From Arthrobacter crusticola (GTDB taxonomy: Bacteria > Actinomycetota > Actinomycetes > Actinomycetales > Micrococcaceae), in contig NZ_SMTK01000003.1 of NCBI RefSeq assembly GCF_004357995.1, positions 620,001-684,000 of the forward strand: a stretch of DNA of 64,000 nucleotides, written 5' to 3'. Within the stretch, counting starts at the first letter, position 1; the number at the start of each line of letters is the position of its first letter. The notes under the pieces were generated by a model, which saw only the letters and a program-made list of their open reading frames with translations, made no database searches and was not told where the DNA came from. Both the position numbers and the translations under genes were made by a program. This document shows positions 1 to 13,783 of the stretch, in pieces.

Positions 1-576
1 GGTCCGGCGCACGAACGCCTGATGCTCGCCAACCTGGCCGCCTCGCTGTTCGAGCACAAGCGCATCACCACCACGGTCACCAAGGCGAAGCGGCTCCGCC
101 CCTACGCCGAGCGCCTCGTCACCTTCGCCAAGAAGGGCGACCTCGCCTCGCGCCGCCGCGTCCTGGGCGTCATCAGCAGCAAGAGCATCGTTCACGAGCT
201 CTTCACTGAGATCGCACCGGCCGTCGCCAACCGCGAGGGCGGCTACACCCGCATCACGAAGATCGGCAACCGCAAGGGCGACAACGCTCCCATGGCTGTC
301 ATCGAGCTGGTCCTTGAGCCGCTGTCCGCCAAGCAGGCAGTCGTAGCCGAGGCCGAGCAGGCCAAGGCAGCCCCCGCGGCTCCGGCAGAGGAGACCGCAG
401 CGCCGGTCGAGTCCGCCGAGACCGTCGAGGCGACCGAGACCGCCGAGACTGTCGAGGCGACCGAGACCGAAGCACCCGCGGAGTCGACCGAGGCTGCAGA
501 GCCCGCCGACACCGCTTCCTCCACCGACGAGGCCGCAGCGTCCGACGACGCCGAAGCCCCCGAGGCCAAGAAGTAA
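1..576 (+). CDS. rplQ: 50S ribosomal protein L17 (5' end cut by window)
   Basis: Ribosomal protein L17 of the large subunit. The reading frame is open from the first base; the visible part starts inside the conserved N-terminus ([19 protein letters not shown]) and roughly a dozen residues, including the start codon, lie outside the window. The conserved L17 core ends near [10 protein letters not shown]. It is followed by a tail of about 75 residues rich in Ala, Glu and Thr with repeated VEATETAE-like units, a long acidic extension of the kind seen on actinobacterial L17 proteins. In the family this gene closes the rpoA operon, and a strong hairpin lies 43 bases past the stop codon. Confidence 0.97.
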
Positions 577-591
577 CTTCGCCGAAGCTGG

Positions 592-1557
592 TTGAATACG
601 TTCGTGAATGATCAGTTGCCCGCCGGACCCGAGGGGTCCGGCGGGCTTCTGCGTGTCCGGCTCGATATCGCCTACGACGGCGCCCCCTTCGCCGGATGGG
701 CCCTCCAGCCGGGCCACGTCACCGTGCAGGGGGTCCTCGAGGAGGCCCTCTTCACGCTGCTGCGGCGCACCGCCCGCCTCACGGTGGCCGGCCGCACCGA
801 CGCCGGCGTCCACGCGCGCGGCCAGGTGGCCCACGTCGACCTGACACCGGGGGAGTGGCACGGCATCGGCCGGGGGAAGGACGTCGCGCCGGGGGAGGCC
901 CTGACACGGCGCCTGGGCGGCACCGTGAACCGGGTCCTCTCCGATCAGCTCACCGGGCGGGGACGCTCGATCAAGAATTCCATCCCGGCCGTCGTCGTTA
1001 AGAAGGCCGACCAGGCGCCGGAGGGCTTCGACGCCCGCTTCTCGGCGCTTTGGCGCCGCTACAGCTACACCATCGCCGACGCCCGCGTCGAACGCGACCC
1101 CCTCGCCCGCCGCACGGTGCTCTGGTATCCGGGGGACCTGGACGTGGAGCTGCTCAACGCCGGCGCCGCGCAGCTGACCGGCCTCCAGGACTTCCGGGCG
1201 TTCTGCAAGCCGCGCGAGGGCGCCACCACGGTGCGCGAACTGCAGCGCTTTGCCTACCGGCGGCGGCCCGACGGAATGATCGAGGTCACCGTCCAGGCCG
1301 ATGCGTTCTGCCACAACATGGTGAGGGCCCTCGTCGGCTCCACCCTGCGGGTGGGAAGCGGTGAACTGCCGGTCACCTGGATCGCCGAGCGCCTCGCCGC
1401 CCGGGTGAAGGACGCCCGTTCCGTGCTGGCGCCCCCGCACCCGCTGGTGCTTGAGGAAGTGGCCTACCCCGGCGTCGAGGAGCTTGGCCTGCGGGCGGAG
1501 CTGACCCGCGCCCGCCGGGCCGCTGAGGAGCCGCGCGAAGCTGCTGGCGGAGCGTAA
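592..1557 (+). CDS. truA: tRNA pseudouridine(38-40) synthase
   Basis: TruA converts U38-U40 of the tRNA anticodon arm to pseudouridine. The catalytic Asp is in AGRTDAGVHARG (D70 from the TTG at 592), and the second half of the fold follows (FDARFSALWRRYSY, then FCHNMVRALVG). At 321 residues it is longer than the roughly 270-residue E. coli enzyme, partly from an insert at about residues 90-135. The start is uncertain: TTG 592, GTG 604 and TTG 616 are all in frame and none has a good ribosome-binding site. The conserved RVRLDIAYDG begins only at residue 21, downstream of a perfect hairpin at 619-645 that probably terminates rplQ. Confidence 0.95.
   Translation: MNTFVNDQLPAGPEGSGGLLRVRLDIAYDGAPFAGWALQPGHVTVQGVLEEALFTLLRRTARLTVAGRTDAGVHARGQVAHVDLTPGEWHGIGRGKDVAPGEALTRRLGGTVNRVLSDQLTGRGRSIKNSIPAVVVKKADQAPEGFDARFSALWRRYSYTIADARVERDPLARRTVLWYPGDLDVELLNAGAAQLTGLQDFRAFCKPREGATTVRELQRFAYRRRPDGMIEVTVQADAFCHNMVRALVGSTLRVGSGELPVTWIAERLAARVKDARSVLAPPHPLVLEEVAYPGVEELGLRAELTRARRAAEEPREAAGGA
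619..645 (+). terminator. rplQ terminator hairpin, overlapping the truA 5' end
   Basis: A perfect 12-bp stem (CCCGCCGGACCC with GGGTCCGGCGGG) encloses a 3-base loop, followed by CTTCTG. It sits 43 bases after the rplQ stop codon. All usable truA starts lie upstream of it, so the hairpin is encoded inside the annotated truA N-terminus. It may partly attenuate read-through into truA. Confidence 0.7.
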
Positions 1558-1572
1558 GCCGGCAGGAAGGCC

Positions 1573-2223
1573 TTAGAGCGGCCCGTCAAGGAACAGCACC
1601 GCCACGGCGGCTGCCAGGATCATGCCGGGGCCGAAGGGAAAGCTGGTATTGCGGGTGCCTCGGCCCGAGAGCAACAGGGCGATGCCCGCCAGGCCCCCGA
1701 AGATGAACCCGCCCAGCAGTGCCGCCAGCCAGGCTTCGACGCCGACGTAGCCGCCGTAGAGACCCAGGACTCCCGCAAGCTTCACGTCACCCATGCCCAT
1801 GCCGGCGGGGGAGATGAACGCCAGCAGCAGGTAGAACAGGAACATCACGGCGCCGCCGAGCAGCGCGCCAACAAGCGGCCGCCAGCCGCCCTCAATCGCC
1901 GCGACGAGCAGGGCCATTCCCGTGACGGCGAGGAACGGGAGCAGTAGTGCGTTCGGCAGGAGCTTGGAGCGCAGGTCGATCGCCGCGAGCAGCACCCCGA
2001 AGACGGGCAGCACGAGGTACAGCAGGACCTCCGTCGGTGCTTCGGCCTTCAGGGCGCCGAGGGCGCAGAACAGGCCGGTGAGGACGGCGACGGGCCACCG
2101 CCAGCGGCCGGGAAGCACAGTCCGTGGATCCCGCGCCGCCAGGGGAAACATCCGGTAGGCGGTGAGACTGCCCGCGACGGCGTACACGAGCGCGAGGACG
2201 GCCCCCGGTGCGGCGTCAGGCAT
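1573..2223 (-). CDS. A24-family prepilin peptidase (TadV/CpaA type)
   Basis: Membrane aspartyl protease that removes the leader of Flp/Tad prepilins. From the ATG at 2223 the two catalytic Asp residues are D83 (AIDLRSKLLPN) and D146 in the GxGD motif (GMGMGDVKLAG), within a multi-helix membrane protein of 216 residues. It has only the peptidase domain, as in TadV/CpaA; the Cys-rich methylating domain of PilD is absent. I prefer ATG 2223 over the upstream in-frame GTG at 2256 because an AGGTG lies about 8 bases upstream. It faces the pilus regulator gene across a shared 220-bp region and is separated from the pilus operon it most likely serves. Confidence 0.88.
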   Translation of the reverse strand: MPDAAPGAVLALVYAVAGSLTAYRMFPLAARDPRTVLPGRWRWPVAVLTGLFCALGALKAEAPTEVLLYLVLPVFGVLLAAIDLRSKLLPNALLLPFLAVTGMALLVAAIEGGWRPLVGALLGGAVMFLFYLLLAFISPAGMGMGDVKLAGVLGLYGGYVGVEAWLAALLGGFIFGGLAGIALLLSGRGTRNTSFPFGPGMILAAAVAVLFLDGPL

Positions 2224-2321
2224 GGGTCGACACCTGCCGGCGGGGCCCGCTGGCACTGGCTTCGGTCCTGGGATTCCGTAGGTAAATCAACTTTCCCCTG
2301 TCGTTGGATCAACCATCATTA

Positions 2322-2345
2322 TCACTCCTGTTGGTACAGGAGTGA
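2322..2345. promoter_or_regulatory. 10-bp inverted repeat upstream of the response regulator
   Basis: TCACTCCTGT-TGGT-ACAGGAGTGA is a perfect 10-bp inverted repeat with a 4-base centre. It lies in the divergent region between the prepilin peptidase and response regulator genes. Both arms carry ACAGGAGT when read 5'-3', an 8-mer also present in the repeat array upstream of flp. A weak promoter for the regulator (TTGGTA, 17-bp spacer, ACTATT) would overlap it, suggesting autoregulation. This is an inferred operator. Confidence 0.55.
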
Positions 2346-2446
2346 CGAGGGTTACTATTGTCCTATTCAGCGGGGGTCCTGCGAGGTGTGGGCCGCGGTA
2401 AGACCCGAATGCGAGGCGCATCACTGGACTGAAGGCGGAAGGCGTT

Positions 2447-3238
2447 ATGAACGATCCTGGGGTGGCGGTCGTTATTGAGGACGACGACGATGTCCGGAAC
2501 CTGCTGAGCGCCGTGCTGCGGCAATCAGGATTCGAGGTCCATGCTGCGCCGACTGGCCGCGACGGCGTCCGCCTGGTCCGCGAGGTGGAGCCGATCGTGG
2601 TCACCGTCGACCTTGGCCTGCCCGACATCGACGGTTACGAGGTGCTGCGCCGGGTACGCGCCTTCAGCGACTGCTACGTCGTCATCCTGACCTCGCGCGC
2701 CGATGAACTCGATGCCCTGATGGGCCTTCAATCGGGGGCCGATGACTACCTCACCAAGCCCTTCCGGCCGCGCGAGCTGCGGGCCCGGGTCGCGGCGATG
2801 ATGCGTCGGCCCCGGTCCGGTGCCGGCGGCGCCCCCCTGATGGGCGGCGGGCCCACCGGACTGGTCCCCGGTTCCGGCGGCCCCAGGAGTGCGCGGATGA
2901 GCACCATCAATGTGCTGCGGCACAACGGGCTGGTGCTCGACCACCATGCGCGGACCGTCTCGGTGGACGGCGCCGAACTGTCCCTGACCCGCAGCGAGTT
3001 CGACCTTCTCCACGCGCTCCTGCTGGGACGGGGCGCCGTTCGAACGAAGGCCGACCTGGTGAAGGTGGTCCGGGGAGAGGCGCCCGGAGCATCGACCTAC
3101 ATCAGCGATTCCGACGAGCGGGCCATCGAGGTCCACATGGGGAACATCCGGCGGAAGCTGTGCGAAGACCCCCGGAACCCCCGCTGGTTCCAGACGGTAC
3201 GTGGCGTGGGGTACCGGCTGACGCCCGAGCAGCCCTAA
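2447..3238 (+). CDS. OmpR/PhoB-family response regulator (orphan)
   Basis: Two-component response regulator of 263 residues. The N-terminal receiver has the acidic pocket (EDDDD at 11-15), the phosphoacceptor D55 (VDLGLPDIDG), T82/S83 and K104 (TKPFRPRE). A linker rich in Gly, Pro and Ser of about 35 residues leads to a C-terminal winged helix (about 152-258, LTRSEFDLLHALL and VRGVGYRLTPEQP). No histidine kinase gene is next to it. It lies beside the prepilin peptidase and near the Tad pilus operon, so pilus regulation is the likely role, supported by shared motif sites (see the flp promoter). The signal and cognate kinase are unknown. Confidence 0.92.
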   Translation: MNDPGVAVVIEDDDDVRNLLSAVLRQSGFEVHAAPTGRDGVRLVREVEPIVVTVDLGLPDIDGYEVLRRVRAFSDCYVVILTSRADELDALMGLQSGADDYLTKPFRPRELRARVAAMMRRPRSGAGGAPLMGGGPTGLVPGSGGPRSARMSTINVLRHNGLVLDHHARTVSVDGAELSLTRSEFDLLHALLLGRGAVRTKADLVKVVRGEAPGASTYISDSDERAIEVHMGNIRRKLCEDPRNPRWFQTVRGVGYRLTPEQP

Positions 3239-3321
3239 AGCGGCATGCAGGCTCTGCACGACGCGGGGTGTACGCGGGGCGGAGCGTCGGCAATACTGTG
3301 GGCGGAAGCAGAGGAGTGCCC

Positions 3322-3903
3322 ATGGGCAAAGTAGTTATGTACAGCTCGGTGTCGGTAGACGGCTTCATCGCGGACGAGAACGACCAGCCCGGACCGCTGT
3401 TCGACTGGTTGCTCAGCGGTGACGTGCCGCTGGACGAAAGCGGCGAGTTGAAGGTATCGCAGACGTCCTACGACTACACCAGGGCGTACTGGAACCAGAT
3501 CGGGGTGACTGTCGCCGGCCGCCGGGTCTTCGACATGACGGACGGCTGGGGCGGGAAGCCCCCGAGCGGAATCGACCACGTGGTCGTCGTGACGCACCGG
3601 CCGGCGCCCGAGGGCTGGGATCCGGCGGCGCCGTTTCACTTCGTCGACGGCGTCGAGGCAGCCGTGGCCAGGGCGCAGGAGCTTGCGGGGAACCGCATCG
3701 TCGAGGTCGCCGCCGGGGACGTCGGGGGGCAGGCGCTTGCCGCGGGCCTGGTCGACGAGGTGCGCATGGACGTCGTACCCGTCGTGCTCGGGTCCGGGAG
3801 GCGCTACTTCGGGCCGGTCCACACGCAGCACCTGTTGGAGGAACCTGACGAGGTGATTCAGGGCAACCGGGTGCTTCACCTGCGCTATCGGGTGCGGCGT
3901 TGA
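3322..3903 (+). CDS. Dihydrofolate reductase-family (RibD C-terminal-like) protein
   Basis: Protein of 193 residues with the DHFR/RibD-C fold signature MGKVVMYSSVSVDGFIA at the start, VAGRRVFDMTDGWGG in the middle and VDEVRMDVVPVVLGSGRRYFG near the end. These proteins are predicted NAD(P)H-dependent reductases and their substrates are rarely known. ATG 3322 is chosen because GAGGAG lies just upstream and the protein begins exactly at the conserved first strand; the reading frame also extends upstream but overlaps the response regulator gene. It is convergent with the DUF808 gene. No pathway partner is visible nearby. Confidence 0.85.
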   Translation: MGKVVMYSSVSVDGFIADENDQPGPLFDWLLSGDVPLDESGELKVSQTSYDYTRAYWNQIGVTVAGRRVFDMTDGWGGKPPSGIDHVVVVTHRPAPEGWDPAAPFHFVDGVEAAVARAQELAGNRIVEVAAGDVGGQALAAGLVDEVRMDVVPVVLGSGRRYFGPVHTQHLLEEPDEVIQGNRVLHLRYRVRR

Positions 3904-3951
3904 CCGGCTACCCCCGCAACGGTGAAGCGCCCTTGGATCAGTGATCCCAGG

Positions 3952-3981
3952 GGCAGGTGGCGTCAAGGGGTGCCACCCGCC
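3952..3981. terminator. Hairpin between convergent genes
   Basis: GGTGGC and GCCACC pair across a 10-base loop, with further pairing (GGC/GCC) beyond one mismatch. It lies between the stop codons of the convergent reductase and DUF808 genes and could serve both as a terminator. There is no T-run, so this call is weak. Confidence 0.35.
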
Positions 3982-3990
3982 GGATGGGAC

Positions 3991-5013
3991 CTAGGAGGCC
4001 GAATCGGCGTCGTGCTTGTCCGGCCGGTAACCGGAGAGGGCGGCGCGGACGTCGCCCTCTTCGTGCCCGCCCTTCTTCTTGCCGAACGGCAGCACCTTCA
4101 TCAGCGGGTGCACGACCGCCATCACGACAAGGCCCCAGGCGAGTCCGAGGACGGCCGAGCACAGGGTGTTGACCAGCCAGACCAGGAAGCTGCCGACCAC
4201 CGCGATTTCCGCGAACGGGTGCTCAAGGGCGTGGACCAAGTCGTACGGGGCGTGCCAGCCGAGGTCGTAGGCGCCCTGCAGCATGATGTGTCCGCCGACC
4301 CAGAGCATGGCGATCGTCCCGATGAAGGTGATCGCGGCCAGCACGGCGGGCATGCCCTTGACGAGCAGCTCGCCGATGCGCTTGGCGCCCGCGGAGTCCT
4401 TCTTGGTCAGGTGCAGGCCGATGTCGTCCATCTTGACGATGAGCCCGACGGCGCCGTACACGAGCACCGTGATCGCCAGCGCCACCACAACCAGGATGAT
4501 CGCCCGCGCCCATATCGACTCATTGGCCACCTCATTCAGCGAGATGACCATGATTTCGCAGGAGAGGATGAAGTCTGTGGTGATGGCCCCCTTGGTGACC
4601 TTGGCCTCCGCCTCCGGGCCCCGTTCCACCACCGGCGATTCTTTGGCCTCGTGGTGCCCGCGGATCTTGTGCCAGACCTTTTCGGCACCCTCGTAGCACA
4701 GGTAGGTTCCGCCCAGCATGAGGATGAAGGGGATGACCGCCGGGATGAAGGTGCTGATCAGCAGCAGCGCCGGCAGGATGATCAACAGCTTGTTGCGCAG
4801 TGAGCCCCAGAAGATCCGCTTGATCATCGGCAGTTCGCGCGATGGATCCGACCCGGAGACGTACTGCGGGGTGACGGCGGCGTCGTCGATCACCACGCCG
4901 GCGGCCTTGGTCCCCGCCTTGGCGGCCCCCGCAGCGACGTCATCCACCGAGGCGGCCGCAATGCGGGCAATGGCTGCGACGTCGTCGAACAGGGCGAAGA
5001 GACCGCCGCTCAC
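3991..5013 (-). CDS. DUF808 family integral membrane protein
   Basis: Member of the DUF808 (YedI-like) membrane protein family, whose function is unknown. The signature N-terminus SGGLFALFDDVAAIARIAA is followed by several hydrophobic segments (LIILPALLLISTFIPAVIPF, AIILVVVALAITVLVYGAVG, LAAITFIGTIAMLWVGG, WLVNTLCSAVLGLAWGLVVM) and a charged tail. GTG 5013 is chosen over the in-frame GTG at 5028 because a GGAGG lies 6 bases before it and family members begin at SGGLFAL. A TATACT -10 box at 5096-5091 gives a leader of about 75 bases. It probably has its own promoter and is not part of the Tad operon. Confidence 0.88.
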   Translation of the reverse strand: MSGGLFALFDDVAAIARIAAASVDDVAAGAAKAGTKAAGVVIDDAAVTPQYVSGSDPSRELPMIKRIFWGSLRNKLLIILPALLLISTFIPAVIPFILMLGGTYLCYEGAEKVWHKIRGHHEAKESPVVERGPEAEAKVTKGAITTDFILSCEIMVISLNEVANESIWARAIILVVVALAITVLVYGAVGLIVKMDDIGLHLTKKDSAGAKRIGELLVKGMPAVLAAITFIGTIAMLWVGGHIMLQGAYDLGWHAPYDLVHALEHPFAEIAVVGSFLVWLVNTLCSAVLGLAWGLVVMAVVHPLMKVLPFGKKKGGHEEGDVRAALSGYRPDKHDADSAS

Positions 5014-5090
5014 AGGTGGCCTCCGCACTGCTTGGAGGTGGACGGCTGGGCGGAGAGGCCACGGTTGAGGCGCGTGATCAGCATGCTTAG

Positions 5091-5096
5091 AGTATA
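5091..5096 (-). promoter_or_regulatory. Probable -10 box for the DUF808 gene
   Basis: Read on the minus strand the hexamer is TATACT. It sits about 80 bases before the GTG start of the DUF808 gene. No convincing -35 box is visible 16-18 bases upstream, so the call is tentative. Confidence 0.35.
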
Positions 5097-5193
5097 AGGT
5101 GGCACGTGGCCTCCCGATCTACTTCCGCCCGTTTACGAAGCTGCGCCCGAGCGTGGCGGTTGCGGGAGCTGGAGGGGTTTCCGGCCGTCGCCG

Positions 5194-5652
5194 CTACAGG
5201 CAGCCGGTGGTGAGCAGGTAGGTGGTGCGCAGCTCCACGACGGTATCCCGTCCGCACCGCTCCAGTGCGGGCAGAGCGCCGATCGCCTCGCGGAGCTGGA
5301 AGCAGCGGAGGAAGCCTTCGATCCGGGAGGCCAGAGCCGACAGTCGGGGTGCGCCGACCATGGTGGAGACGGCCCGAAGGTTGACGACGGCCTCAAGGGC
5401 CGCTTTGGAATCCTCATCGGCCAGGGACGAGGTGAGGCGGTGGATGCGCTCGTCCCAGAACGCCACGTAATCGCTCACGAAGGCCCGGACGGTGGCAATA
5501 TCCTCGAGCTCCTGCCCGAGCTCTTCCAAAACCGTGAGATCCAGCAGAGGTGCAGCGCCGGCATCGCCCGCATCGGGGCGACCGGCGGAGGTCTGCTCGG
5601 GGCGGGCAGCGCCTTGGCTGTCCTGGCTGGAATCGTACGGTGATGTTGCCAC
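5194..5652 (-). CDS. HPt-like protein lacking the phosphoacceptor His
   Basis: Protein of 152 residues from a GTG start. After about 37 disordered residues comes a helical region (about 40-135) that resembles a histidine-phosphotransfer (HPt) four-helix bundle: ALEAVVNLRAVSTMVGAPRL lines up with the usual A-H-S-L-K-G-S-S-x-x-L-G-A segment. At the position of the phosphorylatable His the residue is Val (V90), while L92, R93 and the G100-A101 pair are kept. It cannot act as a standard phosphorelay protein if the alignment is right; it may be a docking or decoy partner for the orphan response regulator. It lies 110 bases downstream of tadC on the same strand, likely as the last gene of the pilus operon. 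Family assignment is by eye and moderate. Confidence 0.6.
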   Translation of the reverse strand: MATSPYDSSQDSQGAARPEQTSAGRPDAGDAGAAPLLDLTVLEELGQELEDIATVRAFVSDYVAFWDERIHRLTSSLADEDSKAALEAVVNLRAVSTMVGAPRLSALASRIEGFLRCFQLREAIGALPALERCGRDTVVELRTTYLLTTGCL

Positions 5653-5761
5653 TCTCTAAGGCTACTTTCGAAGTCCATGGAAGAGTGTGTGGAAAGCCGA
5701 TACTTCGCAAAAACTGCGGTATTACTGTGGTGCGAGATTCGTTGAACGGTCCGGCGCAGGA

Positions 5762-6640
5762 TTATCCGAAAGTTCTCATGATGTTGATCGCGGCCGGGCC
5801 AAGCATGACGATAAACATCACCGGAAAGATGAAAAGGATCAGCGGGAAGAGAGTTTTGACAGGGAGCTTCATTGCCTTTTCCTCGGCGCGTTGGCGGCGC
5901 TTCACCCTTGATTGCTTTGCTTGGGTTTTCAGGACTGTTGAGATCCCGATCCCATATTTGTCCGCCTGCACTACGGCACGCACGAAGCTCTTGAGGTCAT
6001 CGACCGTAGACCGCTCGGCCATGGATTGGTAGGCCTCGCGGCGGGGCCTTCCGACCTGAATATCCTGAAGCGTTCGGACAATTTCCTCCGCCAGAGGACC
6101 TTTGCCATTCTGTCCGGCCCGAGCCATGGCGGTTTCGAAACCGAGCCCCGCCTCCACCGAGATGAGCATCTGGTCCAGAGTGTCCGGCAGCTCCTGCTCG
6201 ATGGCCTGCTGGCGCTTTACTGCCGAGTTGTAGATCAGCAGGTCAGGCATAAAGTAGAACAGCGCCGTGATAAAAAGCCCAAGAAGCACCATCTGCGCGC
6301 CCGCATTATTGCTGTACAGCAGAAGTCCAAGCGCCGCACCAGCGAGGCCGAGAGTTGGCTTGATGGCCAGTACCTTATCGAGGGGCATCGACCTGGGGCG
6401 CCCGGCGAAGGCGAGAAGCCCATCCAGCCTGGCGATGTAAGCGGTAGGTGTGGCCTTGCGAACTATGTCGATGAGAACTGGGGTAGGAGCCTGCGATTGC
6501 CCGTCGGGTCCGCCGATCCCATTCGAGAGATTCGCTTTGATCGCCATAGCCGCTGCGCGGTCGGTGGAAAACAAAGTCCAGACTAGATAGGACAGCGGAA
6601 AAACTATCAAGGCAATAGATGCCCAAACCGAGAAAGTCAT
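5762..6640 (-). CDS. tadC: Tad pilus assembly inner-membrane protein TadC (GspF family)
   Basis: Type II secretion F-family protein of 292 residues with an N-terminal membrane segment, a central cytoplasmic region (QQAIEQELPDTLDQMLISVE, then GLGFETAMARAG) and two C-terminal hydrophobic segments (LGLAGAALGLLLYSNN in the centre and FPLILFIFPVMFIVMLGPAA at the end). With TadB it forms the membrane platform through which the TadA ATPase drives pilus assembly. It starts 11 bases after tadB. The gene is markedly AT-richer than the rest of the window (37% GC by hand count over 6601-6660, at its start) and uses codons rare in neighbouring genes. Confidence 0.9.
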   Translation of the reverse strand: MTFSVWASIALIVFPLSYLVWTLFSTDRAAAMAIKANLSNGIGGPDGQSQAPTPVLIDIVRKATPTAYIARLDGLLAFAGRPRSMPLDKVLAIKPTLGLAGAALGLLLYSNNAGAQMVLLGLFITALFYFMPDLLIYNSAVKRQQAIEQELPDTLDQMLISVEAGLGFETAMARAGQNGKGPLAEEIVRTLQDIQVGRPRREAYQSMAERSTVDDLKSFVRAVVQADKYGIGISTVLKTQAKQSRVKRRQRAEEKAMKLPVKTLFPLILFIFPVMFIVMLGPAAINIMRTFG

Positions 6641-6651
6641 TTATCGGTACC

Positions 6652-7599
6652 TCAAAATTTGATTTTGATCATGCGGCTCAGCCAGAAGCCGCCTATCGCG
6701 TACATGATCACACTTAAGGCAATCATGGCAATGCCTATAGGATGCTCGATAAGCACCACCATGTAAGTCGGGTTAATGAAGCGGAACAGCACCGCGATCG
6801 CTACGGGGAGGCCCATCAGGATGTAGGCGGACATAACTCCCTCTGCGCTGAGCGATCGAATCATTCCTTTGATCTCGCTTCGCTCTCGGATGGTTTCGGC
6901 CACATGTTCCAGGACCTCCGCAAGATCGCCTCCGACCTCGCGGTGGATCTGAATTGCCTGAGCGATCCACTCGAAGTCCTCGCTGGCCATCCGACGGGCG
7001 GCGTCTTCAATCGCCTGCTCTGCGTCCTTTCCAATCCGGGTTTCATTGATGATCCGGGCAAGTTCCTCGGACGTTGGGGAGTCTGCATCCACTGCTACCG
7101 CATCGATTGAGCGCATGACGCTGTGACCGGCGCGGAGTCCACCAATCAACGTCTGGATGGTGTCGGGCAGTTGGGAATCGAACTTCATCCTGCGCCTGTT
7201 GGTGCGTACATTGAGCAGAAATTTCGCAAGAAATGGAGTTGCGAGGGCTGAGAAGAGGCTTACCGCAGGGTGGATGAACACGCCCGTCACGACGCCGCTG
7301 ACGACGGAAGCGGCGACAACAAAAACGGTGACCTCGGCAGGCGATGCCTTAATCCCCGCGTTATACAACGTTTCCTTGTTGAACAATCCGCCTTTTTCGC
7401 CGATGACGCCGTCTACGGCGGTGACAGTCGATTCAGTGACGCGGCTGAAGACCGAAAGCTCGGGGGCGGTAGACGGCCGGCGGCGGTGGAGGGGGATTGC
7501 GCTTTGACGGGGCTTCAGAACCACGACGAACACTAGGAACAGCGCAGCGGAACACATGCCGACTGCGGTGAAAAAGAGAACAGGGCTGTCCACGGTCAT
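6652..7599 (-). CDS. tadB: Tad pilus assembly inner-membrane protein TadB (GspF family)
   Basis: Type II secretion F-family protein of 315 residues, partner of TadC in the pilus platform. It has an N-terminal membrane anchor (LFFTAVGMCSAALFLVFVVV), a conserved F-domain (FDSQLPDTIQTLIGGLRAGH, then IHREVGGDLAEVLEHVAETI) and C-terminal membrane segments (AYILMGLPVAIAVLFRF, IGIAMIALSVIMYAIGGFW). Its start overlaps the tadA stop by 4 bases (ATGA), showing translational coupling in the operon. Confidence 0.92.
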   Translation of the reverse strand: MTVDSPVLFFTAVGMCSAALFLVFVVVLKPRQSAIPLHRRRPSTAPELSVFSRVTESTVTAVDGVIGEKGGLFNKETLYNAGIKASPAEVTVFVVAASVVSGVVTGVFIHPAVSLFSALATPFLAKFLLNVRTNRRRMKFDSQLPDTIQTLIGGLRAGHSVMRSIDAVAVDADSPTSEELARIINETRIGKDAEQAIEDAARRMASEDFEWIAQAIQIHREVGGDLAEVLEHVAETIRERSEIKGMIRSLSAEGVMSAYILMGLPVAIAVLFRFINPTYMVVLIEHPIGIAMIALSVIMYAIGGFWLSRMIKIKF

Positions 7600-9065
7600 C
7601 GTCGCCCCATCGGGCCCGACGGCGTGGCAAATACATTTGGCGACACATGGATGCCCAGTTCCTCGAAGCGATCGAGGAACCGTGGCCGCACTCCCGTGGC
7701 GATAGGTTTACCCAGGAAACGGCCTTGCTGGTCCATGCCGGCCGAGTAGTCAAAGAGGAAAGCGTCCTGGAGGGTTACCACCTCTCCTTCCATCCCCTGA
7801 ACTTCCGTGACATGCGTAACGCGACGGCTTCCATCCCGCATGCGGGTGAGCTGGATGATCAGATCGACGGCCGAGGCAATCTGCTCGCGGATGGCCCTCA
7901 GCGGGAGGTCCATTCCTGCCATCAATACGAGCGTCTCAAGCCGTGCAATGGCATCGCGGGGTGAGTTTGCGTGAACCGTCGACAATGACCCATCGTGTCC
8001 AGTGTTCATTGCTTGAAGCATGTCCAGCGATTCACCCCCGCGGACTTCACCGACGATGATGCGATCCGGCCTCATACGGAGTGAATTGCGCAGCAGTTCG
8101 CGGATGCCGATTGCACCTTTTCCCTCGATATTGGCCGGGCGGCTCTCGAGGCGGACGACATGCTGTTGCTGGAGCTGAAGCTCGACCGCATCCTCGATCG
8201 TGACAATCCGGTCGTTCTCGGGGATGAACGACGAGACAACGTTCAACATCGTGGTTTTTCCGGTGCCCGTGCCACCCGAGACAATGATGTTGAGGCGTGC
8301 CCGGACGCACGCGCTGAGGAGTTCGGCCATCTCCGGAGTCAGGGAACCCCACTGAATGAGATTCTGCACGGTGATGGGCACGTGGCTGAATTTTCGGATG
8401 GTGAGGGACGGCCCGTTCACCGCCAGGGGTGGAATGATTGCGTTGACGCGCGAGCCATCCTCGAGCCGAGCGTCCACGAGAGGTGACGATTCGTCGATCC
8501 TTCGCCCGACCTTGGAGACAATCCGCTCGATGACCTTTCGTAGATGGTCGTCGGAACTGAATTTGCCATCGGTCAGGGAGAGATGTCCGTTTCGCTCGAC
8601 GTAAATCTGGTCGAACCGGTTCACCATGATCTCGGTGATGGATGGGTCTTCAAGCATCCGCTGAATGGGACCATAGCCCATCACCTCGTCCGCGATCTCC
8701 CGGATCAGGCGACGCCGTTCCTCCGGAGATAGCGGGACCTGTTCCTCATCGATGACGGCGGATAGTTCGTCACGGGCGGTGACCCGCAGCTCTTCTTCCG
8801 ATACAGAAGAGTCGCTGAATCGGGACCCCATTCGAGCGAAGAGTGCCTCTGCTGCACGTGCTTTCAGCCCGGCCAATGCGTCCACAGTCGGTGCTACCGG
8901 TGGCGCCTTCAAGGATGAAAGTGGTGACGCTGGAGGCGCGGAAGGAGGCGTTACCGGCGGAACGAAGGCGGGAGCGTCGTCAACCTCTTCTGAGGGATCC
9001 GCCTTTTGGTTGGTCGGCTCTACGCCAACGCCGTGCACTGCCTTCATGCGCTCCGACAGCCTCAT
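7596..9065 (-). CDS. tadA: Tad pilus assembly ATPase TadA/CpaF
   Basis: Hexameric secretion ATPase that powers Flp pilus assembly. After about 100 residues of Pro/Ala-rich N-terminal sequence comes the CpaF core: Walker [10 protein letters not shown] (264-272), an acidic box ([12 protein letters not shown]), Walker B with catalytic Glu ([11 protein letters not shown], about 335-345) and the His box STVHANS (362-368). The length (489) fits the family. It overlaps the upstream ATPase gene and the downstream tadB by 4 bases each, so the three are translated as one unit. Confidence 0.95.
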
Positions 9066-10255
9066 GACACGACCACCCGCCGATGCTGTTTGCGCTTTGA
9101 TCCGTCCTGGGGGCGAAATCGATCAACGAGGTCCTGGAACCCCTTGGTTGCCGCGTCGCGGGCGGTGCCCTGAAGGACGGGAATGCCCCTATTGGTCGAG
9201 AAGGGCAGCGTGCGCGACCGAGGGACTACCACATCCACCGGCACGCCCAAGGTGGCCTCGACGTCCTGCACAGAGATCCCGCTTCTCCGGTCGGCGAAGT
9301 TGAGGACGACGTGCCGATCCCGTGGCAGGAGCTGAAGTTCGCGCAGGACGTCGAGACACTTATGCAGGCCACGCACGCTTGGGACGTCCATCCCGCACAC
9401 CCAGACACCGTCGGTCGCCTGATCCAACGTTGCCAGGCAGTGCTCACCGAGTCCGGGAGCCGTGTCGACGACGACATACTGGAACTGGCTCGCGAGCTGT
9501 GCGAGCAGTCTCGTAACGTGCTCTGCCGTGATGTAGTCCGATTCGGCAGGCGTGCGCGGTGCGCACAGCGCGTAGACCCCGGCCGGATGCACTGTGAGAA
9601 ACGCCTTGAGCACCATTGAGTCCTGGGCGGCCGGCCCGTGGACTGCTTCGGTAATGGAGTGCTCGGGTTCGAGCAATAGCCCGGTGGCGACATCACCGAA
9701 CTGCAGATCGAGGTCAACGAGGACGACCCCCATTGGAGCGATCTTTCCCAACCCGATCGCAAGGTTCGTTGCCACAGTTGTCTTCCCAACGCCGCCTTTC
9801 GGAGACATGACCGCAATTACCCGGCCTTTGCCGTGGTCCGGCTCGGAGCCGAGGGACAGCCCGCGACGTCTGCTGCCTGCTGAGAGACAGCAGCGCTCAA
9901 GGAGCACCCGCAGGGCGTCTACTTCGATATCTGAGGCCACAACATCTCGGACTCCGGCACGCATTGCGGCCAGGACGAGGTCAGGGTTGGGGGGCGCTAC
10001 GAGAACGAGACTCGTTTCAGGGAACTGAAGATCGAAGACAAGGGCAAGCTGCAGCGCGTCATCCGGGTTGATGCCCGGCCCGAGGATCAGGACCTCCGGA
10101 GGCACACCGCCCACCTGCTGCAGGATTCCGTCAGGGCCTGTGGATAGGACTTCGGGAGGGAGTGTCTGGAGGTCGCCGTGCATCACTCCGGTGATGGCCT
10201 GGCGGACGCGGCTCTCGAAGTCACGCACCGCTGTAACTGTGACGAATCGACTCAT
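9062..10255 (-). CDS. CpaE/TadZ-like ParA-family ATPase
   Basis: Localisation ATPase of Tad systems. The N-terminal 130 residues resemble an atypical receiver-like domain that lacks the usual Asp/Lys phosphorylation set. The C-terminal MinD/ParA domain carries a deviant Walker A, SPKGGVGKTT (151-160), Walker A' (VVLVDLDLQFGDVATGLLL) and Walker B (YVVVDTAPGLGE). In characterised systems CpaE/TadZ recruits pilus components to a cell site. The start overlaps the cpaB stop by 4 bases (ATGA). Calling it TadZ rather than CpaE is a naming choice; the family is clear. Confidence 0.88.
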   Translation of the reverse strand: MSRFVTVTAVRDFESRVRQAITGVMHGDLQTLPPEVLSTGPDGILQQVGGVPPEVLILGPGINPDDALQLALVFDLQFPETSLVLVAPPNPDLVLAAMRAGVRDVVASDIEVDALRVLLERCCLSAGSRRRGLSLGSEPDHGKGRVIAVMSPKGGVGKTTVATNLAIGLGKIAPMGVVLVDLDLQFGDVATGLLLEPEHSITEAVHGPAAQDSMVLKAFLTVHPAGVYALCAPRTPAESDYITAEHVTRLLAQLASQFQYVVVDTAPGLGEHCLATLDQATDGVWVCGMDVPSVRGLHKCLDVLRELQLLPRDRHVVLNFADRRSGISVQDVEATLGVPVDVVVPRSRTLPFSTNRGIPVLQGTARDAATKGFQDLVDRFRPQDGSKRKQHRRVVVS

Positions 10256-11016
10256 TTGAGGACCTCTGGGATGGTAATGATTGGCGGGTCAGCCTCTTCG
10301 GAGGTGTCGGTCTCCTTTGTCAACCAGATCGTGCCGAATTCGGCTCCGAAAATCACCCGACCGGCGTTCATGTCGTTCAGGGCGAAGGTGACAAAGGCTG
10401 AACCGTTGGGCATCGCCACGCCTTCACCATTCTGGGAGCCCTCGGTCTCAGGTGCCGCCTGCTGCACGGCAGTCACTAGGACATTCTGCAGACTTAGGTT
10501 GGTGTGCTGCTTGAACCCGGTCATCTCCGCGGGCAGCCGGTCGAAGACTGGAGCCTCCTCCTTGAGTTCACCGGAAACATACAAGCCCACGGAGTCACCG
10601 GCCTTCAGCCGGCCGGCCAGCATCCGCTCGGGCGCGAGCAGGATGGTCACCTCCTCAAGTCCTTGGGGGACGGGCACCGTGCCGGGCGAGAACTGTTCGG
10701 GAGCAACCAAGCGTGCGGCGAGTAGTTGTTCGCCCGGCATCAGGTCGGCAGCCGTGATTTTTCCATCCTGCCCCTCGAGTGTGTTCAGTGAATCTTTGGG
10801 CACAGCTGACTGCGGGAGCGCTTCTGCCTGCAGGAACGCGCTCAGCTCGCTGACCGGGGTTCCCGCGGGTACCTGTTCCTGCACCACGAGGACCTCAGTG
10901 GGCTCAACTCCCTGGAGCGCACGGGTATCAGCGCCCTTCACGTAGATCACTAGGAGGGCCGTGCCGACGACCGCTAGGAGAAGCGCAGCGACCCCTCCGA
11001 TCAAGCGCGATTTCAC
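10252..11016 (-). CDS. cpaB: CpaB-like Flp pilus assembly protein (SAF domain)
   Basis: Protein of 254 residues with a single N-terminal membrane anchor (LIGGVAALLLAVVGTALLVI) followed by an extracytoplasmic SAF/RcpC-like region (VLVVQEQVPAGTPVSEL, ITAADLMPGEQLLAARLV). In diderm bacteria CpaB works with the outer-membrane secretin; no secretin gene is present here, as expected for a single-membrane cell. It starts at GTG 11016 and couples by 4 bases to the downstream ATPase gene. Confidence 0.85.
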   Translation of the reverse strand: MKSRLIGGVAALLLAVVGTALLVIYVKGADTRALQGVEPTEVLVVQEQVPAGTPVSELSAFLQAEALPQSAVPKDSLNTLEGQDGKITAADLMPGEQLLAARLVAPEQFSPGTVPVPQGLEEVTILLAPERMLAGRLKAGDSVGLYVSGELKEEAPVFDRLPAEMTGFKQHTNLSLQNVLVTAVQQAAPETEGSQNGEGVAMPNGSAFVTFALNDMNAGRVIFGAEFGTIWLTKETDTSEEADPPIITIPEVLK

Positions 11017-11104
11017 TGTGTGCTGCTCCTTGTTTCGCTGATTACTCGTGCACTTGGTAATTCAATGTTGAGAGTGGCCTGACGCTCCCCGTGGTCATGT
11101 CTCC

Positions 11105-12175
11105 TCATCGCGAGAGCGAGACGATCGAGGTGCCGTAATTTTGCCCTCCTGGCGTCACCGTCATGCCCTCTTCGAGCGAGACGAAGCGGGTGAAAAACCC
11201 TTGGATACCGCGGCAAGCCCCCCCTTCGCAAGGTGGTGCGAGGGGATCGATAACCCTGAGATCGGACCCGCCGCTGAATTTGTATCCGGTGATCTGGAAG
11301 GCAGCGAACCCTCCTAGGGTGTAGGTGGCCCGGGATCCCGACAGCGTCGAGTTGGTGTAGATGGGTATAAGGACGGGCTCGCCCATGATCGTGGACAGGG
11401 TGGCTTCACAGCGGGCCCGAGGGAAGGAGACACCAGGATCGCTTCCCGCTTCACGGGTGCCGATGTTCACGCGGGCGGAGCAGCCGGTACCGTCCATGTC
11501 GAGCCAGCCGAATCCGCCGGGGATGTCCCCGTTTTCGCGCCCGCAGCCGGGAAAATCAGCGGTGTTGTTATACCGCAGCAGGATGTGGGTGGGGGTGGGG
11601 TCTCCCTCGAAGTTGCCGGTGGAGTTGAATTGGGCGAGTTGCGCTGGACTCAACGACCGCTGGAAGACGCACTGGCTTATTGTCCAAGGAAGCGTGGTGC
11701 CGCCGCTCGGGGCCCCCCAGACCGCCTCGGCTGACGCGGTGACTAGCGTTGACTCGATACCCAGCGCCCGAGCAAAAAACAACGAGAAGCGATTCTCTCC
11801 GGTGCCCGCATCCCGGGCATTCGTTTCGATGCGGACCCGCCCAGCCGTCGGGTCGACGGCCGAAGTAACTCCGGTCGAATCATCGTTGGCGTTGCGGTCG
11901 GCAAAAAACTGCCCAGTGGCGGCAGTGTTGCCGTCATCGCACGCGCCGGGCGTGCCGGCAGCACAGTCGCCGGCGATAGCCAACGCTGCGGCATCGGCGC
12001 CGCTCTGAAGCTGTGCTTTCTCCCAGTAGACGGCTCCGACGTCCACGGCGAGAGCGGCAACCCCCAAGAGTGCAATAAGCAGGACAGCGACCAGGATTGA
12101 GACCGCCCCGCCCTCTGAGTCAATGGACAATCCCGAGCCCCGCACTGATGAGCTGAACTTTGTTATCCGCCGCAT
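11105..12175 (-). CDS. TadG-like pilus-associated protein
   Basis: Protein of 356 residues beginning with a short basic segment and one hydrophobic helix that matches the TadG/TadE N-terminus (GGAVSILVAVLLIALLGVA, then VDVGAVYWEKAQLQSGADAA). The large remainder is extracytoplasmic, rich in Gly, Thr and Asn, and has several Cys residues (ISQCVFQRS, FPGCGRENG, GTGCSARVN, PCEGGACRG) that could form disulfides. It begins 13 bases inside the end of the TadE-like gene. It is probably a minor pilin or surface component anchored by its N-terminal helix. Confidence 0.85.
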   Translation of the reverse strand: MRRITKFSSSVRGSGLSIDSEGGAVSILVAVLLIALLGVAALAVDVGAVYWEKAQLQSGADAAALAIAGDCAAGTPGACDDGNTAATGQFFADRNANDDSTGVTSAVDPTAGRVRIETNARDAGTGENRFSLFFARALGIESTLVTASAEAVWGAPSGGTTLPWTISQCVFQRSLSPAQLAQFNSTGNFEGDPTPTHILLRYNNTADFPGCGRENGDIPGGFGWLDMDGTGCSARVNIGTREAGSDPGVSFPRARCEATLSTIMGEPVLIPIYTNSTLSGSRATYTLGGFAAFQITGYKFSGGSDLRVIDPLAPPCEGGACRGIQGFFTRFVSLEEGMTVTPGGQNYGTSIVSLSR

Positions 12176-12555
12176 CGCATAACCGCCTGGCCTTGGAGAT
12201 CAATGGGAAACAGGCCCGGGCCAAGAAAACCGGACATCGATTCGAGCGTGACGGTTGTAGTGACCGTTATGTTGTCGCCTGGCGCGCAGTCGTCCACATC
12301 GGACTCAACGACCACGGGAAGGTCTTCAAGAACCGTCCCTCGAAGGGCCGCACCTTCGACATCAAGCCGCGGCGGCGGATCGTTCCAGTGGACCGCGCCA
12401 TTGCGCGCACCTTCTCGAGCCGCGTGGGTGAGGGAGTTTTGAATGAAGAACACGCGGCCGTATTCAATCGACCCAATGAGGATCAGTAGGAGTAATGGCA
12501 GGACGAACGCCAACTCGACGGCGACTGCGCCGCGCTCACCATCCTGTCTTCTCAT
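12163..12555 (-). CDS. TadE-like pseudopilin
   Basis: Small membrane-anchored protein of 130 residues. The N-terminus GERGAVAVELAFVLPLLLLI has the TadE consensus: a Gly-Ala cleavage-like site, Glu at +5 relative to the Ala after G9 (E14) and a hydrophobic helix. The following SIEYGRVFFIQNSLTHAARE is also typical. It is a likely substrate of the prepilin peptidase encoded at 1573-2223. It is separated from flp by a strong hairpin, so it is probably expressed at a lower level than the major pilin. Confidence 0.88.
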   Translation of the reverse strand: MRRQDGERGAVAVELAFVLPLLLLILIGSIEYGRVFFIQNSLTHAAREGARNGAVHWNDPPPRLDVEGAALRGTVLEDLPVVVESDVDDCAPGDNITVTTTVTLESMSGFLGPGLFPIDLQGQAVMRCGG

Positions 12556-12591
12556 GCCCGCCCCTCGTTGCCCGATATGTCGACTAATGCA

Positions 12592-12626
12592 AACGGCTCC
12601 GGCGGCCCGAAGCCGCCGGAGCCGTT
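12592..12626 (-). terminator. Attenuator/terminator between flp and the rest of the Tad operon
   Basis: A perfect 14-bp stem (AACGGCTCCGGCGG with CCGCCGGAGCCGTT) encloses a 7-base loop. It starts 4 bases past the flp stop codon and, read on the minus strand, ends in GCCGTTT. It would end most transcripts after flp and let a fraction read into the assembly genes, or protect the flp mRNA 3' end. Confidence 0.8.
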
Positions 12627-12629
12627 CAA

Positions 12630-12839
12630 TTAGCCAGCATTGCCTTCCGGCGTGAAGTCGAGGTTGGTGAACAGGTCCCGGACCGTCTCGCCCAGAGTCA
12701 ACGCGCCAACGGCGACGACGACGGCGATGAGGGCGACCATCAGGCCGTACTCCACCATGGTGGCGCCCTTTTCCTCGTTGGCGAGGCGGGCCTTGGCGGT
12801 GTGAAGGACAGTTGAGACCGTTGCGAAGAGTGCGAGCAT
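12630..12839 (-). CDS. flp: Flp-type major pilin precursor
   Basis: Precursor of 69 residues. The class-IVb (Flp) leader is cleaved after G25 (NEEKG|ATMVEYGLMVALIA), with Glu at +5 and Tyr at +6 of the mature protein, then a hydrophobic helix and a short polar tail. The mature pilin would be 44 residues. AAGGAGT lies 5 bases before the ATG. It is the first gene of the Tad operon and is followed at once by a strong hairpin, fitting high expression of the structural subunit. Confidence 0.95.
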   Translation of the reverse strand: MLALFATVSTVLHTAKARLANEEKGATMVEYGLMVALIAVVVAVGALTLGETVRDLFTNLDFTPEGNAG

Positions 12840-12940
12840 GACTAACTCCTTGGAATTTCAGGACGAACCGTGGACGGATTGCCCGTGGCTGCGGCTGGCC
12901 CAGCGCCAGCTCTGATCACAAGCTAGCAACCGAATCCGTC

Positions 12941-13009
12941 CTTATAGTGGGATCTGTGCTGATCCTGTGGGAACCCTGATACTCCTGTGAATGTCCTGCA
13001 TGTTTCCTG
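12941..13009 (-). promoter_or_regulatory. flp promoter with five phased CAGGA/G repeats
   Basis: Read on the minus strand, a -10 box TATAAG (12946-12941) is preceded by five direct copies of CAGGA or CAGGG. On the plus strand their CCTG cores start at 13006, 12995, 12984, 12975 and 12964, giving spacings of 11, 11, 9 and 11 bases, about one DNA turn each. The last copy falls exactly where a -35 box should be (17 bp from the -10), and there is no TTGACA-like element. This is the layout of an activator-dependent promoter of the PhoB/OmpR kind. The predicted leader to flp is about 95 bases. Confidence 0.65.
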
Positions 13010-13088
13010 CGGGAAGGATGCGCCGAGGATGCGCAGAAGATGCGGTTGGGTCTGAAGAGACTGCGCTGGGAGGGCCGGCCGGCCGCTT

Positions 13089-13118
13089 TTGACCTGAGGC
13101 CCTGCCCCGCGCTAATCT
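13089..13118 (+). promoter_or_regulatory. rplM-rpsI promoter with a long leader
   Basis: TTGACC at 13089-13094, an 18-bp spacer and TAATCT at 13113-13118 form a good housekeeping promoter. It predicts a 5' leader of about 215 bases before the rplM GTG. The leader holds no convincing ORF; a small hairpin (CGCGG/CCGCG) lies near 13286-13301. A leader of this length before r-protein genes could carry an autoregulatory site, but I do not see a recognisable known motif. Confidence 0.6.
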
Positions 13119-13339
13119 TGGTAGTCGTTGTGCGTATCCCAACTCGATACGTCTGCGCCTTCCGGAGCGGTTCAGTTGCAGAACCACCTGGCCCGGGGGA
13201 GCAGCCGAGGTTTCCGGGATAACTGGTTGCATTTCAGCCCTCACCTGAAGTTCCGGTAACGCATGAATAAGCTGAGCTTGTGGACGCGGTTCGACCCGCG
13301 GGCGCAGGCGTCACCGAACAAGAAACGAAGGCCAACACC

Positions 13340-13783
13340 GTGCGTACGTACACCCCGAAGCCAGGCGACATCTCCCGCCAGTGGCACGTCATTGACGCCA
13401 CTGACGTTGTCCTAGGCCGTCTTGCCAGCCAGACCGCAACACTGCTGCGCGGAAAGCACAAGCCGACCTTTGCACCCCATATGGATATGGGCGATTTCGT
13501 CATCATCATCAACGCCGACAAGGTTGCCCTCACCGGCGCCAAGCTCGAGCAGAAGCGCGCCTACCGCCACTCGGGTTTCCCGGGCGGCCTGAAGTCCACC
13601 AACTACGCCGAACTCCTGGAGAAGAACCCGGAGCGCGCGGTTGAGAAGGCCATCAGGGGCATGCTTCCCAAGAACTCCCTGGCTGCCCAGCAGCTGTCCA
13701 AACTGAAGGTCTACCGCGGTGCCGAGCACCCGCACGCTGCCCAGCAGCCCAAGGCCTTCGAAATCACCCAGGTCGCCCAGTAG
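13340..13783 (+). CDS. rplM: 50S ribosomal protein L13
   Basis: Large-subunit ribosomal protein L13, 147 residues. Diagnostic segments are [18 protein letters not shown] at the start, [19 protein letters not shown], and [20 protein letters not shown] then [13 protein letters not shown] at the end. GTG 13340 is chosen because family members begin at this [10 protein letters not shown]; the frame is open further upstream but without conserved sequence. It pairs with rpsI, 41 bases downstream. Confidence 0.97.

Follow-up and report, generated by a model that had tools for sequence, protein, structure and literature searches.

Helically phased direct repeats upstream of flp in an Arthrobacter-type tad block: a probable target of an OmpR/PhoB-family response regulator

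What controls the flp–tad pilus genes of an Arthrobacter-type actinobacterium, in which flp is preceded by a series of tandem CAGGA words, is the question raised by the 64,000-nucleotide stretch of DNA analysed here (the window), whose closest named relatives are Arthrobacter species. To our knowledge, the control of Tad pili in Gram-positive bacteria is little known. The block in question is bounded by truA and rplM (Table 1), and an initial annotation had read its flp upstream region as an activator-type promoter tied to an orphan OmpR-family regulator gene about 10 kb away in the same block; that gene is present as described. Some of the tad gene names used here are our own assignments beyond the Pfam matches. 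No histidine kinase was found among the 20 window open reading frames scanned across the block (22 to 13783), and an Rfam search at gathering thresholds returned no known RNA family in the window.

Table 1. Features of the flp–tad block and of the flp promoter in the window
Feature	Position	Strand	Remarks
truA	592-1557		block boundary
A24 prepilin peptidase	1573..2256	-	divergent from the regulator gene
OmpR/PhoB-family response regulator	2447..3238	+	receiver acidic pocket, Asp, Thr and Lys all present
Hpt-domain protein	5194..5652	-	the regulator's partner at related loci
DUF808 gene			also inside the truA–rplM block
tad genes: TadE, TadG-like, RcpC/CpaB, TadZ, TadA ATPase, TadB, TadC	5762..12555	-	Pfam
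flp, Flp/Fap pilin	12630..12839	-	PF04964; tad cluster reads leftwards from flp
5'UTR hairpin	12894..12910	-	GCTGGC-GCTGG-GCCAGC; begins 3 nt past the predicted start
Predicted extended -10	12920..12929	-	TTGCTAGCTT; family form TTGCTAACTT
TATAAG, the -10 of the initial annotation	12941..12946	-	unconserved in relatives
Repeat 6	12950..12957	-	ACAGATCC; family form CAAGATCC; degenerate; predicted -44
Repeat 5	12962..12967	-	CAGGAT; predicted -54; one of the best conserved copies
Repeat 4	12972..12978	-	CAGGGTT; family form NAGNNTT; predicted -65
Repeat 3	12983..12987	-	CAGGA; predicted -74; conservation in relatives weak
Repeat 2	12994..12998	-	CAGGA; predicted -85
Repeat 1	13005..13009	-	CAGGA; predicted -96; register matches model R1
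rplM	about 13340		block boundary

The five CAGGA/CAGGG copies that the initial annotation had reported, at steps of 11, 11, 9 and 11 bp, are found exactly as claimed (starts at 13009, 12998, 12987, 12978 and 12967 on the minus strand). To these we add a sixth copy, not reported there, which sits 10 bp past repeat 5 and adjoins the predicted -35 region, so that the direct repeats follow one another at intervals of roughly one helical turn, with conserved steps of 11, 11, 9, 11 and 10 bp. The five-copy array exceeds chance. Specifically, the longest run of CAGG[AG] words at 9-12 bp steps in the 500-base intergenic region is five, dinucleotide shuffles of that region reached a maximum of three (in 3 of 2000), and no run longer than two occurs anywhere else in the window. 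A strict three-in-a-row pattern matched three times in the 3.67-Mb genome, two of these matches overlapping within the flp promoter, and its reversed control matched nowhere in that genome. When the test was corrected for any tetramer, a run of five was reached by 1 of 1000 shuffles, and when the window itself was cut into 508 overlapping half-kb tiles on both strands, 6 of them, the flp site among these, had a run of at least five of some tetramer; taken alone, this word-free test is weaker support for a non-chance array. As a separate observation, CAGGA is over-represented across the window (1-64000), with 229 matches against 138 expected and none of 100 shuffles as high.

With respect to conservation, relatives of Flp were drawn from 57 whole genomes, 31 of which matched, and from named genomes (75 loci). 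Related flp clusters share a promoter design in which CAGG-like repeats at 11, 11, 9, 11 and 10 bp end in CAAGATCC and are followed, after about 20 bp, by TTGCTAACTT and then by a hairpin; the window promoter matches this family register copy for copy. From 62 non-redundant promoter candidates we took out 17 by hand (12 rows that were mis-anchored, the divergent L003 and four Sinomonas rows with shifted spacing) to leave 45, and L069:7150 was also dropped, giving 44 promoters with the window and 43 without it. A sequence-only model trained on these 43, R1, places the window promoter at the top of its own genome (48 bits, E 2e-12; runner-up 21.4 bits). Across the 57 genomes, R1 finds a match at E<=0.1 in 34 (own included), and 19 of its 20 matches with E<=1e-5 lie upstream of flp.

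In terms of the promoter itself, the initial annotation had set the last repeat exactly where the -35 element of a TATAAG promoter would be. The gap between TATAAG and CAGGAT is 15 bp rather than 17, and the TATAAG columns are almost without information in relatives; TATAAG was discarded as the -10 for this lack of conservation, the conserved -10-like element being TTGCTAGCTT. The latter is the likely -10, which would shift the promoter by 21 bp and gives a predicted transcription start near 12913. As our initial alignment was anchored on the -10 and the hairpin, the conservation of those columns is partly built in, and we avoided circular anchoring for the -10 in a second alignment with exact [GA]CAGGAT as its only anchor (33 of 48 promoters, non-redundant). 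In this alignment TTGCTAACTT emerges at +38 to +47 from the anchor, with its conserved A in 29 of 33 promoters, its last T in 27 of 33 and its remaining fixed positions in 20-24 of 33; its two middle positions vary. Given a -10 at TTGCTAGCTT, the first five repeats would lie upstream of -48 and the sixth would abut the -35 region; the end of the array would adjoin that region, on the predicted -10 and start, in a promoter with no recognisable -35 box. The pairing of the hairpin is intact in 259 of 259 cells (44 sequences), although these sequences were picked partly by the presence of its 5' arm, so that the conservation in this count is partly built in. Two of its six pairs are changed on both sides, in four cells, and its covariation score was reached by none of 500 shuffles. 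The repeats and their register, as well as the conservation of the -10 and hairpin, are direct observations.

The co-occurrence of promoter and regulator is likewise a direct observation. Here 97 first-in-cluster flp genes in named loci with enough upstream DNA were scored with a weight matrix that excluded each locus's own sequence and kept its relatives. Initial scores placed 44 above zero and 53 at or below it; L054, L059 and L074, which a spurious flp match upstream had mis-started, were re-scored by hand, and the counts became 47 and 50. The regulator state of edge loci was entered by hand from whole-genome coordinates, and L073 was resolved likewise. All 47 promoter-positive tad clusters have an OmpR-family regulator nearby, seen in the fetched locus in 37 cases, by whole-genome coordinates in nine, and through an inferred contig join in one (L033). 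Among the 50 clusters scoring at or below zero, the regulator lies downstream in two (L036, L045), 38 have none and 10 are undecided at contig ends. The promoter thus occurs in 0 of the 38 scored clusters without a regulator in at least 9 kb downstream, a set that includes seven from distant taxa and also L042, counted here though its regulator gene lies 3-4 kb upstream of flp. In 23 loci with two tad clusters, one cluster has both regulator and promoter and the other has neither. The initial annotation had proposed a search of related flp promoters: there the phased repeats are kept, in the same register, and go together with the regulator.

Since shared lineage might account for this co-occurrence, a TadZ tree was built (62 rows). 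The window, L032, L034 and L036, all regulator-bearing, share a group (100/97) with 13 clusters that yielded no regulator, and the main regulator-bearing group is separate from it; L037 carries the regulator-less label in this tree on a contig that ends early. Two tad lineages combine regulator and promoter, and L036 has the regulator but not the promoter. The independent events behind this pattern are few and may be gains or losses, and co-inheritance explains part of the co-occurrence. Despite a regulator, the flp promoters of L036 and L045 (score -0.6) have diverged, as has that of L042 (score -15.8), where the regulator lies upstream of flp, and those of L007 and L009, judged by eye; in Sinomonas (L042, L045) the regulator-linked flp promoters are without the design. 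In the Paenarthrobacter-type genomes G061, G064, G073 and G074, the regulators are about 55-57% identical, the recognition helix is near-identical in the three aligned (G064, G073, G074), and no R1 site was found at E<0.05. The regulator is kept between truA and rplM in four genomes (G001, G010, G023, G032), and no Flp was found there. At L198, L199, L200 and L201, in four relatives, the regulator lies between truA and rplM, in two cases with the Hpt gene, and no tad genes were detected there.

Many tad clusters that lack the regulator have flp promoters with another array, built of GAGTAC/AAGTAG-type words. In the named loci, these words lie at about -93, -60, -40 and -7 relative to a conserved ACTACGCATTGT-like word; they are 33, 20 and 33 bp apart, each step being close to a whole number of helical turns. 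The array matched 20 upstream regions, two of which are second readings of the same promoter, and some miss one or two words; the loci include L038, L046, L048, L049, L050, L054, L060, L073, L074, L096, L097 and others. We know of no regulator for it.

The regulator of the block has a receiver domain (Response_reg, 88.7 bits) in which D12, D13, D55, T82 and K104 are invariant in A3, and we take these residues to fill the roles of the receiver's conserved Asp, acidic pocket, Thr and Lys. It ends in a winged-helix domain (Trans_reg_C, 65.1 bits) with three helices and a hairpin in the predicted model, and its best PDB matches belong to the OmpR/PhoB family. A tree of 100 rows places it in a clade (99/93) with tad-linked regulators and some unlinked paralogs. 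The linker at residues 124-153, modelled with low confidence, is probably disordered. In PhoB, the loop between helices 2 and 3 contacts sigma; in our model this loop is long (residues 210-220), and in a sequence alignment it is about 7 residues longer than in MtrA/RegX3. In a fold search the full-length matches listed had whole-chain TM-scores, normalised by query length, of 0.33-0.48, low values that we think arise because the relative placing of the domains is not fixed, and the search added little beyond family membership. Assignment as an MtrA equivalog was rejected, the score being 161.5 bits against the NF040689 cut-off of 300 bits.

The genome encodes a second regulator that is 69% identical (C3:209617-210363), beside a divergent histidine kinase. 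No kinase was found next to the regulator of the block among the open reading frames scanned; one adjoins this paralog and another the tad-linked regulator of G070 (L283), the two kinases being 54% identical. Since the tad-linked regulator of G070 has a related kinase next to it, the kinase of the paralog is the best candidate donor for the block. No R1 site was found at the window's own regulator gene or Hpt gene, and autoregulation of either was dropped on this ground.

Taken together, these comparisons support reading the region as a promoter of the activator type whose direct repeats are helically phased, for which an OmpR/PhoB-family regulator is the best explanation. We infer the binding, the activation, the start site and the route of phosphate from sequence, as follows. 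A phosphorylated regulator of the clade represented in the block probably binds the phased repeats as side-by-side dimers, with repeats 5 and 6 as the core beside the -35 region and repeats 1-4 extending the array upstream, and would recruit RNA polymerase to the extended -10. The transcript would begin at the predicted start and open with the conserved hairpin. The Hpt protein encoded nearby probably belongs to the phosphate path, fed by a kinase encoded elsewhere, the best candidate being that beside the paralog. To this explanation as a whole, in which a regulator of that clade binds the repeats and recruits RNA polymerase at the flp–tad promoter, we assign a probability of roughly 0.7. The activator reading of the initial annotation accordingly survives as far as the phased repeats, their conservation and the co-occurring regulator are concerned, and fails in its TATAAG promoter, which was displaced by 21 bp. 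Its description of a self-contained control circuit is too narrow: no kinase was found in the block, a paralog comes with a kinase, weaker sites lie at other genes, and the regulator persists in the four genomes where Flp was not found.

Other explanations were weighed against this one. The repeats could be bound mainly by the 69% paralog, leaving the regulator of the block minor or redundant; the two have nearly the same recognition helix, and of the two the paralog alone has an adjacent kinase. We nonetheless consider this unlikely, as the tad-linked regulator is present in most related genomes with the flp promoter, a second 69% copy appears only in G000, G012 and G013 among the matches listed, and the R1 match near the paralog is weak (11.8 bits). 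Nor can sequence give the direction of control, which leaves room for a site of repression or DNA bending in place of an activator array. An array upstream of the -35 region with no -35 box is the typical activator position in the OmpR/PhoB family, and on the predicted -10 the array here lies just so, beside a promoter without a recognisable -35 box, which makes the repressive or bending alternative very improbable.

An activator of another family that reads 11-bp direct repeats, such as a SARP, has a slimmer chance still. SARPs have OmpR-type DNA-binding domains and 11- or 22-bp repeats (PMC10936776), but in their sites the repeat nearest the promoter stands 8 bp from the -10 (PMC10936776), against 24 bp here from the end of repeat 6 (12950) to TAGCTT (12925). 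SARP binding was rejected for this misfit of position, and no SARP gene was found among the 20 block open reading frames scanned. The reading to which we give least credence is the promoter of the initial annotation, with CAGGAT as -35 and TATAAG as -10: the 15-bp arrangement recurs in the near relative L034/L005, but TATAAG is unconserved in other relatives, conservation is seen instead in the -10-like hexamer 21 bp beyond it, and the hairpin starts where a transcript from that conserved -10 would.

Sites of the R1 type also occur beyond the pilus. Matches with E<=0.01 comprise 35 at flp or a tad cluster, with flp confirmed for 13 of them, and 18 elsewhere. In G005 (L191, about 11718-12527, minus strand), a tadG-like gene comes directly after a flp-type promoter, and no flp or tadE was detected between. 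Six of the 18 non-tad sites precede a gene for a secreted S8 protease (subtilase) in G014, G062, G068, G069, G071 and G072, an identity assigned by homology and by Pfam for L192 only. Five are at operons with a signal-peptidase-like gene (Peptidase_S24 + DUF5305), possibly to be named SipW-like in our view; four of these sites precede a small secreted protein gene (G062, G068 twice, G070), and the fifth (L278, G068) a gene that matches the C-terminal part only. Three lie before a small secreted Ala/Pro-rich protein gene in the close sister genomes G000, G012 and G013, two before a FliA-type sigma gene (G016, G023), for which the best NCBIfam model is FliA_WhiG at scores below its cut-off, and one before an Hpt gene (G015). 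The last (G007) is at a secreted protein beside a Pel-type polysaccharide cluster, as judged by eye with no Pfam match. Five of the 18 are within 2.1 kb of an OmpR-family regulator of the same family, which adjoins an Hpt gene in all five cases and is the tad-linked regulator in G070 and another copy elsewhere.

Among 14 loci searched, two leaders contain a c-di-GMP-I riboswitch (L267 1379-1454 and L279 1379-1453, both on the minus strand); both lie directly downstream of R1-type sites, in leaders of small secreted proteins that are followed by signal-peptidase-like genes. Upstream of fliA homologues, R1 matched at E<0.05 in 9 of 19 loci (72-kb search). The fliA site is present in G016, where the best full-length regulator is 54% identical, and the fliA homologue of the window's own genome has no significant R1 site (E 0.88). 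The second site of that genome (21.4 bits) precedes a small secreted Ala/Pro-rich protein gene and has, by eye, a hairpin of its own. At L189 (2353-6159), the Ala/Pro-rich gene is followed by a receiver-SpoIIE phosphatase gene and then a cellulose-synthase-like glycosyltransferase gene. A wider regulon in the own genome was dropped, this being its one further convincing site.

The weaker sites elsewhere suggest a wider regulon of surface attachment and motility. The non-tad sites are weaker than most flp sites and come from a flp-trained model, so such a regulon is put forward as a hypothesis. In its most general and tentative form, to which we give somewhat less than even odds, the regulator clade, tail to tail with Hpt, would act in Arthrobacter-type bacteria as a lineage-wide phosphorelay module, the switch of a "surface life" regulon. 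This would comprise the Tad pilus, the secreted-protein and signal-peptidase operons (some also gated by a c-di-GMP riboswitch) and the secreted subtilases; in the A. agilis group it would take in a FliA-type sigma factor as well. All would share a single multi-repeat promoter design in which the extended -10 stands at a nearly constant distance from the repeats. Weaker sites at surface genes and at the FliA-type sigma gene may suggest how such bacteria choose between attaching and swimming.

The flp motif and its regulator offer a direct, testable handle on Tad pilus control in a Gram-positive bacterium. Micrococcus luteus belongs to the same family as Arthrobacter. Its tad genes are required for natural transformation (PMC4322843). 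Searches of open-licence papers on Flp/tad regulation, and on Arthrobacter together with Tad pili, biofilm or c-di-GMP riboswitches, brought up no description of this flp promoter or regulator.

With respect to known systems, the closest solved structures to the regulator by sequence are mycobacterial MtrA and RegX3, and by fold it is nearest MtrA and PrrA, with PhoP and RegX3 also among the matches listed; it shares with these four mycobacterial proteins the domain order and receiver residues, at about 35% full-length identity. SARPs such as AfsR are alike in their OmpR-type DNA-binding domain and 11-bp repeats at the -35 region, but have a BTA domain and no receiver, with the repeat 8 bp from the -10 (PMC10936776). 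In Pectobacterium, ECA0785, an OmpR-domain response regulator beside the tad cluster, raises flp/tad transcription, as shown by mutant and complementation (PMC3767616); there the kinase is adjacent, whereas the block described here has an Hpt gene and no kinase was found in it. Many binding sites of Escherichia coli ArcA, of the OmpR/PhoB family, consist of three to five direct repeats whose centres are mostly 11 bp apart (PMC3798270). The regulator family and the multi-repeat array are shared with ArcA; the sequence and the genes differ, and the 11/11/9/11/10 register is kept here across many flp promoters.
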